From: Synergistota bacterium | Lineage (GTDB): Bacteria; Synergistota; GBS-1 | Length of the DNA: 64,000 nucleotides | Assembly: GCA_025060595.1 (NCBI GenBank) | Contig: JANXBX010000004.1 | Coordinates: 1 to 64,000 of the forward strand | Direction: 5' to 3' | Shown: positions 44,129 through 50,533 of the stretch, piece after piece | Layout: each line of letters starts with the position of its first letter | Numbering within the stretch: the first letter of the stretch is position 1 | Program-made: the position numbers and the translations under genes | Notes under the pieces: model-generated | What the model was told of the DNA's origin: nothing | The model's input: the letters and a program-made list of their open reading frames with translations, nothing else | Database searches by the model: none

Positions 44129-44853
44129 CTTTCCCTCTCCCTTACTATTACCATATCACTAAATCTCAGATCAAAAATCAAACCCTTTCCTTTAGCAGGA
44201 AATTTACTACGTACCTTGTCTAATTTATACATGCTTAAGGAAACATCCCCACTTCGCGGGAGAAAAATTTCACAATCCTCCTTCTTAATCTGAAAACAAT
44301 TTTCCTTTATATATACTTCTTCAATCTTTTCCAAAAAAGAGAACAACTTCAACAAATTTATCAAATTCGGATCCTCAGTTTCTTTACCAGGAAACCAAAC
44401 AATTTCCTTATAATAAGTTACCACGCATAAGCCTTTTGGTAAGCTTTTCATGTATTCTTTTCCAACGCTTAAAACTGGCCAAAGCAATCCTCTAACACTT
44501 ATCAGCCATAAACCATTAGGAGCCCTTACAATAGCAATCGGAATCTGGTCCTCTAACCTTATAATCAAGGAAGAAGGATATTTTTTACGTATCTCTAAAA
44601 CCTTAACAAACCACCTTTTTTCTATTTCAAAAGCTATACTTTCTTCATCTATTAACCAAATATTCTCCCCTATAGGAAGAAGATGATTTTTCTTTAAGTC
44701 TTCTAAAGTTAACGAAGAACCATTTTTAAGCTCACAATTCTTTATTTTGAAATATTCCGATCTAAATAGAAAATAGTAAAAACCTACACCTAAAGTTATA
44801 AGAACAAATAGCTTAAATATAAATCGCAATTTCAGGTTCAAGCTCAATTCCAA
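44125..44853 (-). CDS. ftsQ: Cell division protein FtsQ/DivIB
   Basis: A bitopic divisome protein of 242 residues. It has a short cytoplasmic N-terminus, one membrane helix (about 10-28), a POTRA-type domain starting EYFKIKNCELKNGSSLTLEDLKK (about 33-100) and a beta domain. It connects FtsA/Z with the FtsLBWI synthase. The start is uncertain: TTG codons at 44853, 44847 and 44838 all fall inside the 3' end of murB, giving an overlap of up to 41 nt, and none has a strong ribosome site, so coupling is likely. Confidence 0.88.
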   Translation of the reverse strand: MELSLNLKLRFIFKLFVLITLGVGFYYFLFRSEYFKIKNCELKNGSSLTLEDLKKNHLLPIGENIWLIDEESIAFEIEKRWFVKVLEIRKKYPSSLIIRLEDQIPIAIVRAPNGLWLISVRGLLWPVLSVGKEYMKSLPKGLCVVTYYKEIVWFPGKETEDPNLINLLKLFSFLEKIEEVYIKENCFQIKKEDCEIFLPRSGDVSLSMYKLDKVRSKFPAKGKGLIFDLRFSDMVIVRERER

Positions 44854-45712
44854 ATTTTTCCCTTACTCTTTCTTTTATAACTTCCATTAGTTGAAGTACA
44901 TCCCTCGCTTTCGCTCCGCCAATATTTATTATAAAGTTAGCATGGCTTTCTGAAACTTTAGCTCCACCTATGACCATTCCCTTACAACCTGCTTGTTCTA
45001 TTAGTCTGCCGGCATAATCTCCTGGAGGATTCTTAAATATACATCCAGCACTTGGATAAGAAAAAGGTTGTTTTTTTCTCTTTTCCCAAAAGCTCCTTAT
45101 TCTCTTAGCTATATCAGCAGGGGTAGAAGGCTCTAAACGTAAGACTACTCTCCATATAAACCACTTTTTTTCTTGGAAGTTAGAATATCTATAAGAAAAA
45201 ACCATGTCTTTATCGAAAAGTTCGCTTATCTCTCCATCTTCCTTTATAACAGTTACCTTTTCCACAAGAGAACCTATCGCATGAGAATTCGCTCCGGCAT
45301 TTGTCCATATAGCCCCTCCTACAGAACCAGGTATACCTATAGCAAACTCTAAACCGGAAAGCCCTTTCTCTTGAGATAGGTTTATAAGCCTTTTAAGAGG
45401 AACCCCAGCCTGGGCCTCGATCCTAAACTTGTCAAGAAAACATACGTTTTGCAAATTTTTTCCTTCACTAAATTTTAGAACTATTCCCCTAAATCCATCA
45501 TCACCCACAAGAATATTACTCCCATGCCCAACAAACAAAAAATTAATACCTGCCTCATTGCAAAACGTTATCGTCCTCCTAACATCATCCACATCTTCAG
45601 GAATTATAAGGTAATCAGCCGGACCACCGATGCCTATTGAGGTATGATTAGAAAGAGCTTCTCCTTTTAATATAACACCCTTTATTTTACTAAGAAGACG
45701 TTCTATCTTCAT
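44813..45712 (-). CDS. murB: UDP-N-acetylenolpyruvoylglucosamine reductase
   Basis: FAD/NADPH enzyme that makes UDP-MurNAc from the MurA product. Seen are the FAD-site SNHTSIGIGGPADYLI (about 20-35), FVGHGSNILVGDDGFRG, GLEFAIGIPGSVGGAIWTNAGA, SAGCIFKNPPGDYAGRLIEQ with the proton-donating Ser/Cys region, and the C-terminal ESHANFIINIGGA with Glu ending in LEPEIAIYI. The type fits the short MurB II form without the Tyr loop. The ATG at 45712 has AAGGAGG 7 nt upstream and overlaps the murC stop as TGATG. Confidence 0.96.
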   Translation of the reverse strand: MKIERLLSKIKGVILKGEALSNHTSIGIGGPADYLIIPEDVDDVRRTITFCNEAGINFLFVGHGSNILVGDDGFRGIVLKFSEGKNLQNVCFLDKFRIEAQAGVPLKRLINLSQEKGLSGLEFAIGIPGSVGGAIWTNAGANSHAIGSLVEKVTVIKEDGEISELFDKDMVFSYRYSNFQEKKWFIWRVVLRLEPSTPADIAKRIRSFWEKRKKQPFSYPSAGCIFKNPPGDYAGRLIEQAGCKGMVIGGAKVSESHANFIINIGGAKARDVLQLMEVIKERVREKFGIELEPEIAIYI

Positions 45713-47046
45713 CAACAACCCTCCTTAAACTTAGCAAGTAGGGCTTTACTGAGTTTATATATATCTCCTGCTCCTATAGTAATAAAAAGGTCTCCACTTT
45801 TCAACTCCTCCATTAAAACTTTTTGTGCATCCTCTATATTTGAAAAAAAGTAAATATTCGGTTTCTTTTTAAAGCACAAAACTTCATAAATAAGCTTTCC
45901 GCTTATCCCTTCTATTGGCGGTTCAGAAGCAGAATATATCTCCATGACCCCGATCCAGTCAGCTAATTCTAACGACTCTGCCATTTCTTTATACATTCTA
46001 CTTGTTCTCGAATAGCGATGAGGTTGAAAAACAACAACCAATCTTCTATCCACCCATAAATCCTTCAAGGTCTTTAAAACTGCTCTTATTTCAGTTGGAT
46101 GATGAGCATAGTCGTCCATAAAGAGAATACCGTTAAACTCACCTAGCAATTCCATCCTTCTTCTAACCCCTTTAAAACCTTGAAGAGATTCTATAACCTT
46201 ACCATGATCTAAACCGATTTCTTTAGATAACGCTATTACCCCTAGAGCATTGTATAAGTTATGTCTACCAGCAACTGAGAGTCTTAAAGTACCTATTCCT
46301 TCCACAAACAAAGTACTTGAATCTATAACCTTACCTGTAAAGGATCCTCGAACAAATCCATAAGACAATCCTTTTAGGTTCATTCCATTTAATACTGGAT
46401 CGTCAGCATTATATATTACTAACCTTGAAACTCTCGCAAGCTGATGAACTTTATCCTTAAGATCTTCAAAATCAACGTAGTTTTCCAGATGCTCCTCTTC
46501 CAGATTTGTAATTATCAAGTAATCAAGCCTTGATAAAAAGAGAAAACTTCCATCACTTTCATCAACTTCAGCCACAAAAAATTCACCATTACCCATTCTA
46601 TAATTGCCACCAATATAAGGATAATCACCTCCTATCACACCTATAGGATCAAACCCCGAATCTATAAACAGCTTTATAACCATCGCTGATGTGGTCGTTT
46701 TACCATGTGTTCCTGTTACCCCCACTCTTCTATAAGAACTCATAAGAAACTCAAGCAGCTCAGCTCTATGCATTACCCTTAATCCTTGTCTGATAGCAAA
46801 AGATAGTTCTGGATTCTTTTTATCTATAGCAGAAGAATACACAACATTTTGGGCATCTCCTATATTAGAAGGATCATGGCTACGAAAAACTTTTATCCCT
46901 TTCTGAATGAGTTTCTCTAGAAAAGGGGATTCTCCAACATCGGAACCAGAAACACGGTAACCCATATCATGCAACATAAAAGCTAAAGAGCTCATCCCAA
47001 CTCCGCCTATGCCTATAAAATGATACCTATCTTTTTTTCCAAACAA
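45712..47046 (-). CDS. murC: UDP-N-acetylmuramate--L-alanine ligase
   Basis: Adds L-Ala to UDP-MurNAc. The 444 residues show the N-terminal FIGIGGVGMSSLAFMLHDMGY, the ATP site VGVTGTHGKTTTSAMV (about 107-122), the carbamylated-Lys region, FMDDYAHHPTEI and the VFQPHRYSRT motif typical of MurC. The start is TTG (47044-47046) with AAGGTGG 9 nt upstream, inside the last 20 nt of murG. Confidence 0.97.
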   Translation of the reverse strand: MFGKKDRYHFIGIGGVGMSSLAFMLHDMGYRVSGSDVGESPFLEKLIQKGIKVFRSHDPSNIGDAQNVVYSSAIDKKNPELSFAIRQGLRVMHRAELLEFLMSSYRRVGVTGTHGKTTTSAMVIKLFIDSGFDPIGVIGGDYPYIGGNYRMGNGEFFVAEVDESDGSFLFLSRLDYLIITNLEEEHLENYVDFEDLKDKVHQLARVSRLVIYNADDPVLNGMNLKGLSYGFVRGSFTGKVIDSSTLFVEGIGTLRLSVAGRHNLYNALGVIALSKEIGLDHGKVIESLQGFKGVRRRMELLGEFNGILFMDDYAHHPTEIRAVLKTLKDLWVDRRLVVVFQPHRYSRTSRMYKEMAESLELADWIGVMEIYSASEPPIEGISGKLIYEVLCFKKKPNIYFFSNIEDAQKVLMEELKSGDLFITIGAGDIYKLSKALLAKFKEGC

Positions 47047-48115
47047 GATTTAATACCACCTTTCCAAGAAGCTGTGCAGAATTCTCCCTATTTGCCCGCC
47101 TTATTCTATATTCCCTTTTTAGAAGTTCATAAAGCTTTGAAGAGGTTAATTCTTCATCTTTAATCAAAACAGCTTGTCCTTCTCTCTCTAAAAGGCGAGC
47201 ATTAAAAAATTGATGATTCCCAGTACTATGAGGGTAAGGAACAAGGATCGCTGGTAACCCTAAAACTCTAAGCTCTGCTACTGTGCTTGCACCTGCTCTT
47301 GAAAGAACCAAATCCGCTGCACCATATGCATCCCATATATTATCGATATAAGGTAAAACCCTAACGTACATCAATAAACTGCTTTTAACAAACCTAAGAG
47401 CTTCGTTAACTTCATCGAAGTTCTCCTTACCAGTAACAAGTATAATCCCCCAGTCTTCTAAAGAACCCTCGAAGCCTCCGTCCTTTAAAAAGCCCACTAT
47501 GGCATCGTTTACCCTTTTCGCACCCAGGCTTCCCCCAAAAGCAAAAAGGACCTTTCTCCCCTCTAGCCCCCACTTTTTTTTCGTTGCTCCAAGAGTAATC
47601 TTCAAAATTTCCTCCCTCACTGGGTTCCCAGTTACAACACACTTCTTAATCAAGTCTTTTCTTAGAAATTGCATTGTTTCTTCATAAGAGATAGATATTC
47701 TGTCAACAAGAGGTGCTAAAATTCTAGTTGAAAGACCAGGCTTTACATCCTGCTCATGAATAAGGGTTCTAATTCCTAACAATTTTCCTGCCAAAATAGG
47801 AGGAACCTCCCCATATCCTCCCATTCCAACTATAAGATCAGGCATGAAATACTTTATCAACTTAATACAGTGAAATACTGCTAAGCCTATTTTTAAAACT
47901 CTCTTCACATTCTCAAAACAGAACCTTCTATGCAAACCCCTATAGGAAAGTTCTTTGCAATTATATCCTTTCTCCACAATAATTTTACTTTCTCCCCTAT
48001 CAGAAGTCACAAAGAAAACATCTATTCCTTCTTTCTTTAGAAAATCTGCCAATGCCAAGGCTGGATAAACATGTCCACCAGTCCCAGCAGATGCTATTAA
48101 AACCCTACCTTTCAA
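47027..48115 (-). CDS. murG: Undecaprenyldiphospho-muramoylpentapeptide GlcNAc transferase
   Basis: Makes lipid II from lipid I at the inner face of the membrane. The 362-residue GT28 enzyme has the G loops IASAGTGGHVYPALALADF (about 7-25) and GMGGYGEVPPIL (near 95-106), LIHEQDVKPGLSTRIL, FGGSLGAKRVN (third G loop, near 193), and the UDP-GlcNAc site SRAGASTVAELRVLGLPAILVP. It overlaps ftsW by 11 nt and murC by 20 nt. Confidence 0.97.
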   Translation of the reverse strand: MKGRVLIASAGTGGHVYPALALADFLKKEGIDVFFVTSDRGESKIIVEKGYNCKELSYRGLHRRFCFENVKRVLKIGLAVFHCIKLIKYFMPDLIVGMGGYGEVPPILAGKLLGIRTLIHEQDVKPGLSTRILAPLVDRISISYEETMQFLRKDLIKKCVVTGNPVREEILKITLGATKKKWGLEGRKVLFAFGGSLGAKRVNDAIVGFLKDGGFEGSLEDWGIILVTGKENFDEVNEALRFVKSSLLMYVRVLPYIDNIWDAYGAADLVLSRAGASTVAELRVLGLPAILVPYPHSTGNHQFFNARLLEREGQAVLIKDEELTSSKLYELLKREYRIRRANRENSAQLLGKVVLNLVWKKR

Positions 48116-49199
48116 TTTTATCTTCCCTCCTAGATATACTCAGAAGGATGCCTACACAGGACATGTTAACTAGCATACTCGAACCCCCATAACTTAAAAA
48201 TGGAAGAGGCATACCAGTGCAAGGTATAAAATTCGTAACTCCACCTAAATTTATAAAAGCTTGTAGTAACATTAAAAAGGTAATTCCCATACCTAGAAGC
48301 TTACCAAAGGTGATGCTTGCCTTCCTCGCGATTTGAAACGATGTCCAACCTATCAAGCCATACAAGGTAAGAACTAAAAAGCTACCAACCAGACCCAGCT
48401 CTTCTCCCACTACAGAAAAAATAAAATCAGTGTAGGGTGCAGGAAGATAATAAAACTTTTGTAAACCTCTTCCTAACCCAGTTCCCCAAATACCACCTAT
48501 ACCAAAAGCCAATAAAGACTGAATTATTTGATATCCATATCCGTGAGGTGAAGACCAAGGATCCCAAAAAGCTAGTATCCTCATTCTCCTATAAGGCTCT
48601 ATCCATATGAATAAAACTCCTAAAGTAACCAAGAAAACTAAAATAATTAATATTCTTAAAGTACTTATTCCACCAACCCACCACAGTATAATACTAACTC
48701 CAACTATAACAACAGCAGTTCCCAAGTCTGGCTGAAATAAAACCAAACCCGCTGATACAAGCGTAATAATCAATAAAGGCAAAAGAACCTCTTTAAAGTT
48801 ATTCAATATTTCCTGCTTTCTTGTTAGGAAAGAAGCAGTATAAATCACAATACTAAGTTTTACAAGCTCAGCAGGTTGAAAGGTAAATCCCCATCCGATT
48901 TTAATCCATCTATAAGCCCCTCCCCTTGCTTCTCCTCCGTAAAACAAAGTAATCAAAAGCAAGAAAATGGAAACAAACATCAATGGTTTACTTAGAGCAA
49001 AAAGCTTTACATAATCCATTCTTATCAGTAAGTTCAAAGCAACTAAGCCAATTCCTATAGATATAAGATGTTTTTTAAAAAGGGCAAAACCTTCACCATT
49101 TCTACAGCCAGGAGGAGCTGTAGAGCTTAATATTTCAAGGGTGCTTATAACTAAAAGAATTGCTACGCTTACTATTAAAAGTCTTTCTGGAGATTTAAT
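48105..49199 (-). CDS. ftsW: Peptidoglycan glycosyltransferase FtsW (start codon unusual)
   Basis: SEDS-family septal peptidoglycan polymerase. Hallmarks are FQPAELVKLSIVIY, FQPDLGTAVVI with the catalytic Asp, SPHGYGYQIIQSLLAFGIGGIWGTGLG (split at about 218-240), PYTDFIFSVVGEELGLVG and PLPFLSYGGSSMLVNM. The first usual start codon (TTG at 49037) would drop the first membrane helix. Upstream, the same frame stays open and encodes KSPERLLIVSVAILLVIST, a good TM1, but holds no ATG, GTG or TTG before the stop at 49209-49211. An ATT at 49197-49199 inside the murD end would give 364 residues, the normal FtsW length. Confidence 0.9.
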   Translation of the reverse strand: MKSPERLLIVSVAILLVISTLEILSSTAPPGCRNGEGFALFKKHLISIGIGLVALNLLIRMDYVKLFALSKPLMFVSIFLLLITLFYGGEARGGAYRWIKIGWGFTFQPAELVKLSIVIYTASFLTRKQEILNNFKEVLLPLLIITLVSAGLVLFQPDLGTAVVIVGVSIILWWVGGISTLRILIILVFLVTLGVLFIWIEPYRRMRILAFWDPWSSPHGYGYQIIQSLLAFGIGGIWGTGLGRGLQKFYYLPAPYTDFIFSVVGEELGLVGSFLVLTLYGLIGWTSFQIARKASITFGKLLGMGITFLMLLQAFINLGGVTNFIPCTGMPLPFLSYGGSSMLVNMSCVGILLSISRREDKIER

Positions 49200-50533
49200 A
49201 CCGCTCGTTTAAATACCCTTCCCCTTTCCTCAAAGTTAGAAAACATATCAAAACTTGCACAAGCCGGTGAAAGAAGCACAATTTCTCCTCTTCTAGCAAC
49301 AGAATGAGCCAAACTAACAGCCTCTTCCATGCTTGACACAGAAAAGATTCTATCCTCAGAAAAACCCTCTCTCTGAACCGCTTCTTTTATAATCGGCCCA
49401 TCTTCACCAAGAAGAACAAGGACCCTTACCTTTTCTATTATCTTTTTAGCAAGTTTCTCATAACCCGCCTTCTTACCCCTTCCACCAGCTATTAAGATAA
49501 TAGGAGCTTCAAATGAATCGAGAGCCATTAAGGTAGAAACTACATTCGTTCCCTTAGAGTCATTTATATAAGTTACTCCATCGATCTCAGCAACGAATTC
49601 TAACCTATGTTCTAATCCAGAAAACTCCCTTAAAACTTTAGCTATAGCTTCCTTTTTTGCTCCAGCCTGATAGGCCATACCAGAGGCACACAGAGAATTT
49701 TCTAAGTTATGAGGTCCCTTCAATTTAATTTCGCTTACTTTAATAATCTCTTCTCCTAAAACAATCATCTTACTATCTATAACGCCAGCCCCTCGCTCCG
49801 GAAGCCCGTCTTTCCAAAAAAGGTACTTTTGAGAAACAAAATTAACATCTTTTAACAAGTTATCACTCGCGTTAACCCATATACTATCTTCTTCTTTCTG
49901 GTTAGAAGCAATTTTAAGCTTAGCTCTCAAATAATTTTCCATAGTTTTATGACGATCAAGATGATCAGGTGTCACATTTAGTATCGCTGCAATTTTAGGA
50001 GAAAACTTCTCTATAGTTTCAAGCTGGTAACTTGAAACTTCAAGAACATAACAGTCAGCATCCTGTTGCTCCAACACTGCCCTAGAAAAAGGATATCCTA
50101 TGTTTCCTGCTAAAATCGACCGCATTCCTGAAGCCTTCAACATCAGATCAAGAAGTGTTACTGTTGTACTTTTCCCATTCGTTCCAGTAACAGCATAAAT
50201 TGGAACGTTGGAAAACCATGAAGCCACCTCTATCTCCCCATAAATAGATATCCCCCTTTCCCTAGCTTCTGAAAGTATAGGAATATCAAGAGAGACACCA
50301 GGACTAACAGCTATAAAGTCAGCATCAAGCACTCTCTTACTATGCTCTCCGATTTCGAAGTCCACACCCAGCCTCTCTAATTCCCCTATAGAGTCCTTTT
50401 TCTCTAAAGAATTCTCACTCACAAAAACCCTAGCTCCTTTAGCTTTTAGAAGGTAAGCTAAACCTAAACCACTTCTCGAAGCTCCTATTATAGAAACTCT
50501 CTTACCTTCGATTTGCTTCATCATTTTCACCAC
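49175..50533 (-). CDS. murD: UDP-N-acetylmuramoyl-L-alanine--D-glutamate ligase
   Basis: Adds D-Glu to UDP-MurNAc-L-Ala. The 452 residues have the N-terminal SIIGASRSGLGLAYLLKA, the ATP site YAVTGTNGKSTTVTLLDLML (about 113-132), NVTPDHLDRHKTMENYLRAK, the LEHRLEFVAEIDGVTYINDSKGTN block (about 308-331), and SPACASFDMFSNFEERGRVF near the end. D-Glu use ties to the D-glutamate-related genes elsewhere in the window. It overlaps mraY by 7 nt. Confidence 0.97.
   Translation of the reverse strand: MVKMMKQIEGKRVSIIGASRSGLGLAYLLKAKGARVFVSENSLEKKDSIGELERLGVDFEIGEHSKRVLDADFIAVSPGVSLDIPILSEARERGISIYGEIEVASWFSNVPIYAVTGTNGKSTTVTLLDLMLKASGMRSILAGNIGYPFSRAVLEQQDADCYVLEVSSYQLETIEKFSPKIAAILNVTPDHLDRHKTMENYLRAKLKIASNQKEEDSIWVNASDNLLKDVNFVSQKYLFWKDGLPERGAGVIDSKMIVLGEEIIKVSEIKLKGPHNLENSLCASGMAYQAGAKKEAIAKVLREFSGLEHRLEFVAEIDGVTYINDSKGTNVVSTLMALDSFEAPIILIAGGRGKKAGYEKLAKKIIEKVRVLVLLGEDGPIIKEAVQREGFSEDRIFSVSSMEEAVSLAHSVARRGEIVLLSPACASFDMFSNFEERGRVFKRAVLNLQKDF

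Follow-up and report, generated by a model that had tools for sequence, protein, structure and literature searches.

A conserved ACG codon as the probable start of ftsW in the Synergistota class GBS-1

Here, we analyzed ftsW, a minus-strand gene located between murD and murG in the dcw cluster of a Synergistota bacterium (class GBS-1; assembly GCA_025060595.1, contig JANXBX010000004.1), within a window of 64,000 nucleotides (nt; positions 1 to 64,000). No standard start codon is available for the full-length protein. An ACG codon inside the end of murD, the Shine-Dalgarno (SD) sequence upstream of it and the spacing between the two are conserved at the codon level, and SD-backed non-standard starts recur in other genes of the class. 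Judged from these sequence data, FtsW is probably translated in full length by weak, SD-driven initiation at this ACG (49208–49206), a reading to which we assign a probability of about 0.6.

Results

The ftsW frame lacks a standard start before its first membrane helix

The genome under study comprises 1.86 Mb in 34 contigs and is 99% complete. The comparison set consisted of four genomes of the class (G000–G003) from three genera, and three of them hold the murD–ftsW junction. G003, the ‘bacterium GBS-1’ (LEKQ01000007.1), is filed at NCBI under unclassified Bacteria; we take it to be a hot-spring Synergistota genome. In a profile search of genome contigs based on a two-row alignment (the second row being short), GBS-1 itself and one staphylococcal locus were recovered. 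The ftsW and murD genes were assigned by family models, while the other dcw neighbours were named from gene order and sequence.

Read directly, the 5′ end of the ftsW frame consists of TAA (49211–49209), ACG, AGC, GGT, ATT (49199–49197) and AAA, and the first ATG, GTG or TTG is the TTG at 49037–49035, codon 58. The original prediction had claimed that the frame stays open for 57 codons before this TTG without a standard start for the full-length protein and that the ATT would give 364 residues; both statements hold, and the length from ACG is 367 residues. It had also described a convincing first membrane helix upstream of the TTG, which is supported by the alignment with the sister genera and by the family score. 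The 57 codons align with two sister genera at an identity of 67% and 63%, and the alignment to TIGR02614 (ftsW) begins at residue 9. Against this model, the full frame reached 348.1 bits and the TTG-started form 325.7 bits, with a cut-off of 337.5 bits. Since the cut-off is passed only with the N-terminus, the 57-codon stretch represents genuine FtsW coding sequence. The full frame also scored 327.6 bits against PF01098 (cut-off 26.4), and thus belongs to FtsW according to the curated cut-offs of both families.

For comparison of helix 1, 29 FtsW loci were aligned, three of them from within the class (one further locus, L013, is cut by a contig end, and a fragment in G001 was not used). Outside the class, all loci whose 5′ end is complete (25/25) have a standard start before the helix. 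The orthologs of the sister genera conserve the helix and, as in the genome under study, have no standard start before it, their first standard codons lying inside helix 1 (TTG at codon 17 in G003, GTG at codon 14 in G002). As three genera concur in this respect, a sequencing error or indel was rejected as the cause of the missing start. Neither a read-level indel nor orthologs devoid of the first helix, the two outcomes that the original prediction had named as speaking against it, were encountered.

An ACG codon and its Shine-Dalgarno sequence are conserved in three genera

The near-cognate codons that are conserved ahead of the helix core in all three genomes are ACG at codon 1 and ATA at codon 12. 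The ACG at 49208, a conserved and SD-spaced candidate that had been overlooked in the original prediction, is found in 3/3 genomes with the junction and lies 7–8 nt downstream of GGGGAAGGG (own genome) or GGGGGAGGG (two sisters). The corresponding SD energies are −7.8 (own genome), −12.2 and −14.9 kcal/mol, meaning that the SD is strong and properly spaced, albeit moderate in the own genome. A 16S rRNA gene was not found in the four assemblies of the class; therefore, the usual CCUCC was taken as the anti-SD, a choice that fits the GGAGG preceding the ATG starts of the own genome, mostly 6–11 nt upstream (341 training genes). Because an in-frame TAA stands directly before the ACG, this codon can be translated as part of ftsW only if ribosomes start on it or slip onto it. 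With ACG as the start, murD and ftsW would overlap by 34 nt (Table 1). Predicted mRNA folds around the ACG were not consistent across the three genomes.

Table 1 Coordinates of the murD–ftsW junction and of further genes discussed in the text.
Feature	Location	Strand	Remark
ACG, proposed start codon	49206..49208	-	First codon after in-frame TAA; 3/3 genera
Shine-Dalgarno block GAGGAAAGGGGAAGGG	49216..49231	-	7 nt before ACG, within murD; sister genera GGGGGAGGG
ftsW, read from ACG	48105..49208	-	367 codons plus stop
murD	49175..50533	-	GTG at 50533, TAA stop at 49177–49175
11 murD codons (NFEERGRVFKR)	49205..49237	-	9/11 identical in three genera; ends at CGA giving CG of ACG
First membrane helix, residues 10–29, LLIVSVAILLVISTLEILSS	49122..49181	-	Encoded and conserved
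ATA codon 12, alternative coupled start	49173..49175	-	Overlaps murD stop: TAATAG own genome, ATAG sisters
ATT of the original prediction	49197..49199	-	CTT, GTT in sister genera
TTG, first standard start	49035..49037	-	Start here would cut off helix 1 and the greater part of helix 2
murB	44813..45718	-	
PolX-like	G000 C16:33212-34924 (L189)	-	CTG with strong SD; first standard codon 87 codons later
HisB	G000 C16:11148-11717 (L197)	-	CTG behind strong SD, 4/4 genomes
Permease	G000 C5:82234-82983 (L204-L207)	+	ATA directly after in-frame stop, 4/4, behind AAGGAGGT or similar
LeuC-like	G000 C3:55603-56862	-	
GntR-like	G000 C6:126349-127047	-	
M20-peptidase-like	G000 C10:50355-51581	-	
PilZ-like	G000 C15:33877-34506	+	
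NAD-kinase-like	G000 C1:198906-199748	-	

The murD codons around the SD and ACG are constrained

As the SD and the ACG lie within murD, the amino acids of this region are fixed, while its codons are free to vary. At conserved columns of 11 dcw genes, the background codon identity amounts to 591/2303 (26%), and to 72/278 in murD. Nine or more identical codons were reached in only one of 394 codon windows with at least 10 conserved columns each, and this one is the block comprising SD, spacer and ACG. Two of its codons vary, one in the purine run (GGA/GGG) and one in the spacer (GTA/GTT/GTC). When windows with at least 8 conserved columns were considered (n = 1243), only the start region of murB was equally constrained (7/8). 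These two regions, the murB start and the murD–ftsW junction, are the most codon-constrained dcw stretches across the three genera.

The arginine codon that supplies the CG of the ACG is exceptional as well. CGA accounts for 3.5% of arginine codons, compared to 87% for AGA and AGG together, and among 108 columns consisting entirely of arginine this murD codon is the only one with CGA in all three genomes. Synonymous changes reappear right after it; the constraint thus stops at the ACG.

Conserved non-standard starts occur in further genes of the class

Next, a simple gene model of the own genome (1.836 Mb, 1730 genes, 1719 with closed frames) was used to look for comparable cases. In 32/1719 genes, the first standard start is preceded by coding signal over 12 codons or more, and 18 of these 32 have an SD of −7.5 kcal/mol or stronger in front of a CTG, ATT, ATC, ATA or ACG. 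In 5000 frequency-matched codon sets, 7.5 such genes were expected (standard deviation 2.7) and none of the sets (0/5000) reached 18. For CTG alone, six cases were seen versus 0.51 expected.

In addition, starts were compared between orthologs of the own genome and GBS-1. After removal of 16/670 pairs (cut frames, identity below 40% or no conserved block), 593 of the remaining 654 have a standard start column in common and 61 lack one. According to our reading, 29 candidate pairs fall into ftsW, nine further genes with conserved non-standard starts behind a strong SD in both genomes, six pairs with a standard codon in one genome and CTG at the same SD-backed position in the other, and thirteen uncertain pairs. 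The nine genes (names other than ftsW, murD and infC were read from sequence, not from family searches) use CTG (PolX, HisB), ATT (QueA, infC and a KOW-domain gene), ATC (RNase Y-like), ATA (permease, DedA-like) or ATA/ATC (GntR regulator). Across the four genomes, CTG of PolX, CTG of HisB and ATT of infC are each conserved in 4/4. The near-cognate codon of QueA is kept in 3/4, with G002 having TTT at this position and a GTG two codons earlier. In infC and the RNase Y-like gene, in-frame standard codons are also found within the SD itself. The arrangement of stop and ATA in the permease is the same as that of TAA and ACG in ftsW.

The median SD energy was −11.3 kcal/mol for ATG starts and −14.05 kcal/mol for the ten non-standard cases, which suggests that strong SDs make up for weak start codons; as the ten cases were picked partly by their SD, this difference is only suggestive. 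It is conceivable, although we advance this tentatively, that the class has a widened repertoire of start codons and that its ribosomes accept variants of AUG at the first, second or third base (CUG, ACG, AUU, AUC and AUA) as conserved starts if a strong SD is provided, with FtsW, an essential divisome enzyme, being set by the weakest of these codons, ACG, in every genus seen.

An ordinary initiator tRNA and KsgA are present

Among 45 tRNA genes in the stretches examined, three carry a CAU anticodon, and one of these is an ordinary initiator with three G-C stem pairs (the stem was judged by eye). A changed initiator tRNA was therefore rejected as an explanation, as was the loss of KsgA, which is present in 21/21. 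RsmD gave matches in 21/21, but with just 2/21 of them above the cut-off these are uninformative as to a loss of RsmD.

Discussion

Proposed initiation at ACG

ACG is most likely the codon at which ribosomes initiate on ftsW. 30S subunits would bind the strong SD hidden in the last murD codons, independently of murD termination, and the SD would place the ribosome such that the ACG is used by the initiator tRNA even though its second base does not match. Methionine would presumably be inserted at this position. The weak codon would keep the yield of FtsW low relative to its dcw neighbours, and this low yield may be its purpose. In this respect, the suggestion of the original prediction that a rare start limits FtsW agrees with the best reading as far as a rare start codon is concerned, but not with ATT as that codon.

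Several observations weigh against initiation at ACG. The codon mismatches the initiator tRNA at the second base, and E. coli IF3 is reported to allow nothing but Watson-Crick pairing at the first two bases (PMC10158994). With an ordinary initiator tRNA and KsgA present, no relaxed initiation machinery was found among these two components. Furthermore, ftsW is the sole ACG case found in this analysis, and its SD in the own genome (−7.8 kcal/mol) is the weakest among the ten conserved non-standard cases. The supporting junction is present in three genomes only, being absent from G001, and the N-terminal tail (codons 2–11) of the own genome matches G003 at 7/10 positions but G002 at just 1/10 (by eye). 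The excess of SD-backed non-standard codons also shrinks at an SD limit of −10 kcal/mol, where 12/32 genes are counted and 22/5000 codon sets reach 12.

Alternative explanations

The main alternative, which we regard as rather unlikely, is a start of FtsW at AUA (codon 12, 49175–49173) by termination-reinitiation after murD. The original prediction had proposed coupling to murD, and the overlap of this AUA with the murD stop in 3/3 genomes makes it possible: AUAG in the sisters and UAAUA in the own genome correspond exactly to the widespread AUGA and UAAUG overlaps. A standard start codon does not overlap the murD stop in any of the three genomes, the overlapping codon being AUA in all. An AUA start would leave helix 1 nearly intact, the ATG of many relatives outside the class lies 3–4 residues upstream of the AUA position, and AUA starts exist elsewhere in the class, in the permease (4/4) and the DedA-like gene (ATA/ATA). 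However, this AUA has no SD (−1.2, −5.9 and −0.6 kcal/mol), in contrast to values of −11 to −18 kcal/mol at the other AUA starts. Its conservation needs no start-codon explanation, as ATA is the commonest isoleucine codon (61%) and the UAG stop of murD in the sister genomes also depends on it. Moreover, a start at AUA leaves the codon constraint on SD, spacer and ACG unexplained.

The remaining alternatives appear far less probable. The original prediction had also considered a frameshift from murD. As ftsW is in the −1 frame relative to murD, a −1 shift near the murD end would yield a MurD-FtsW fusion or feed ribosomes into ftsW. SD-like sequences and slow codons such as the rare CGA can stimulate frameshifting. 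Nevertheless, a conserved in-phase slippery heptamer is missing (TTT AAA is preceded by a variable base, A, T or C), a −1 slip on AAA runs into UAA, the in-frame TAA just before the ACG blocks earlier shifts, and the product would combine a soluble enzyme with a membrane protein, making this route very improbable. We consider a start at the ATT (49199), the codon named in the original prediction, to be just as doubtful: ATT starts are seen in the class in QueA, infC and the KOW-domain gene, but at the position of this ATT G003 reads CTT and G002 reads GTT, and hardly any SD precedes it (−3.4 kcal/mol, with the purine block 16 nt off). Least credible of all is a truly short FtsW beginning at a late standard codon, with the upstream frame open by chance. 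Such codons exist (TTG 49037 in the own genome, GTG14 in G002 and TTG17 in G003, the latter two inside helix 1), but their positions differ among the three genomes, the short form scores below the FtsW cut-off, and the upstream stretch matches both sisters and the FtsW model residue by residue.

Relation to known systems

The class was compared with other bacteria through published figures. In plant organelles, ACG starts are mostly converted to AUG by C-to-U RNA editing. They resemble ftsW in having ACG at the start-codon position; to our knowledge, no such mRNA editing is known in bacteria. The translation factor gene infC is autoregulated by IF3. Like ftsW, it has a conserved non-standard codon (AUU/AUA; ATT in 4/4 genomes of the class) behind a strong SD, but its mismatch affects the third base, whereas that of ftsW affects the second base and is not associated with a known feedback. 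In E. coli pcnB, the poor AUU start codon limits translation, which is a single case and does not involve ACG. In Staphylococcus aureus, the conserved starts of cvfC1 (AUU) and ccpN (AUA) are combined with extended SD motifs, and a lowered yield was measured (PMC13009471); in contrast to the class studied here, these are third-base variants in few genes.

CUG is reported to make up 0.024% of bacterial initiation codons, with 0.86% of the efficiency of AUG (PMC11497404). CTG appears to be the start of at least 6/1719 genes (0.35%) here, although the gap to the published figure is indicative only, as the annotation behind that figure probably seldom admits CTG. In an N-terminal study of E. coli, the 688 annotated starts that were seen comprised 628 ATG, 50 GTG and 10 TTG (PMC13245402). 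The literature on non-standard and ACG starts, the ftsW/murD overlap and GBS-1, covered mainly by titles and abstracts, yielded no report of an ACG-started ftsW. SD-backed non-standard starts are thus already known; the present case differs in the conservation of the ACG, in its location within murD and in how many such genes a single class contains.

If initiation at ACG is true, the strength of an SD can prevail over a mismatch at the second base when bacteria select a start codon, a possibility treated as excluded in the E. coli IF3 work. Likewise, gene callers limited to ATG, GTG and TTG would truncate or misplace perhaps twenty proteins per genome of the class, including FtsW, PolX, HisB and QueA. 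The fixed pairs of SD and codon would further provide a natural series on the trade-off between SD and start codon.

Further observations

Apparent CTG starts behind an SD (range −10.6 to −15.2 kcal/mol) were also noted in a LeuC-like, a GntR-like and an M20-peptidase-like gene. In a PilZ-like gene, ATT is the sole type of SD-backed candidate before the first standard codon, and in an NAD-kinase-like gene the only SD-backed near-cognate codon in this position is ATC. Among the well-supported standard starts of the own genome (484 pairs; ATG 314, TTG 118, GTG 52), TTG represents about a quarter, and TTG starts are listed for murC, murG, murB, ftsQ and murE in the window.

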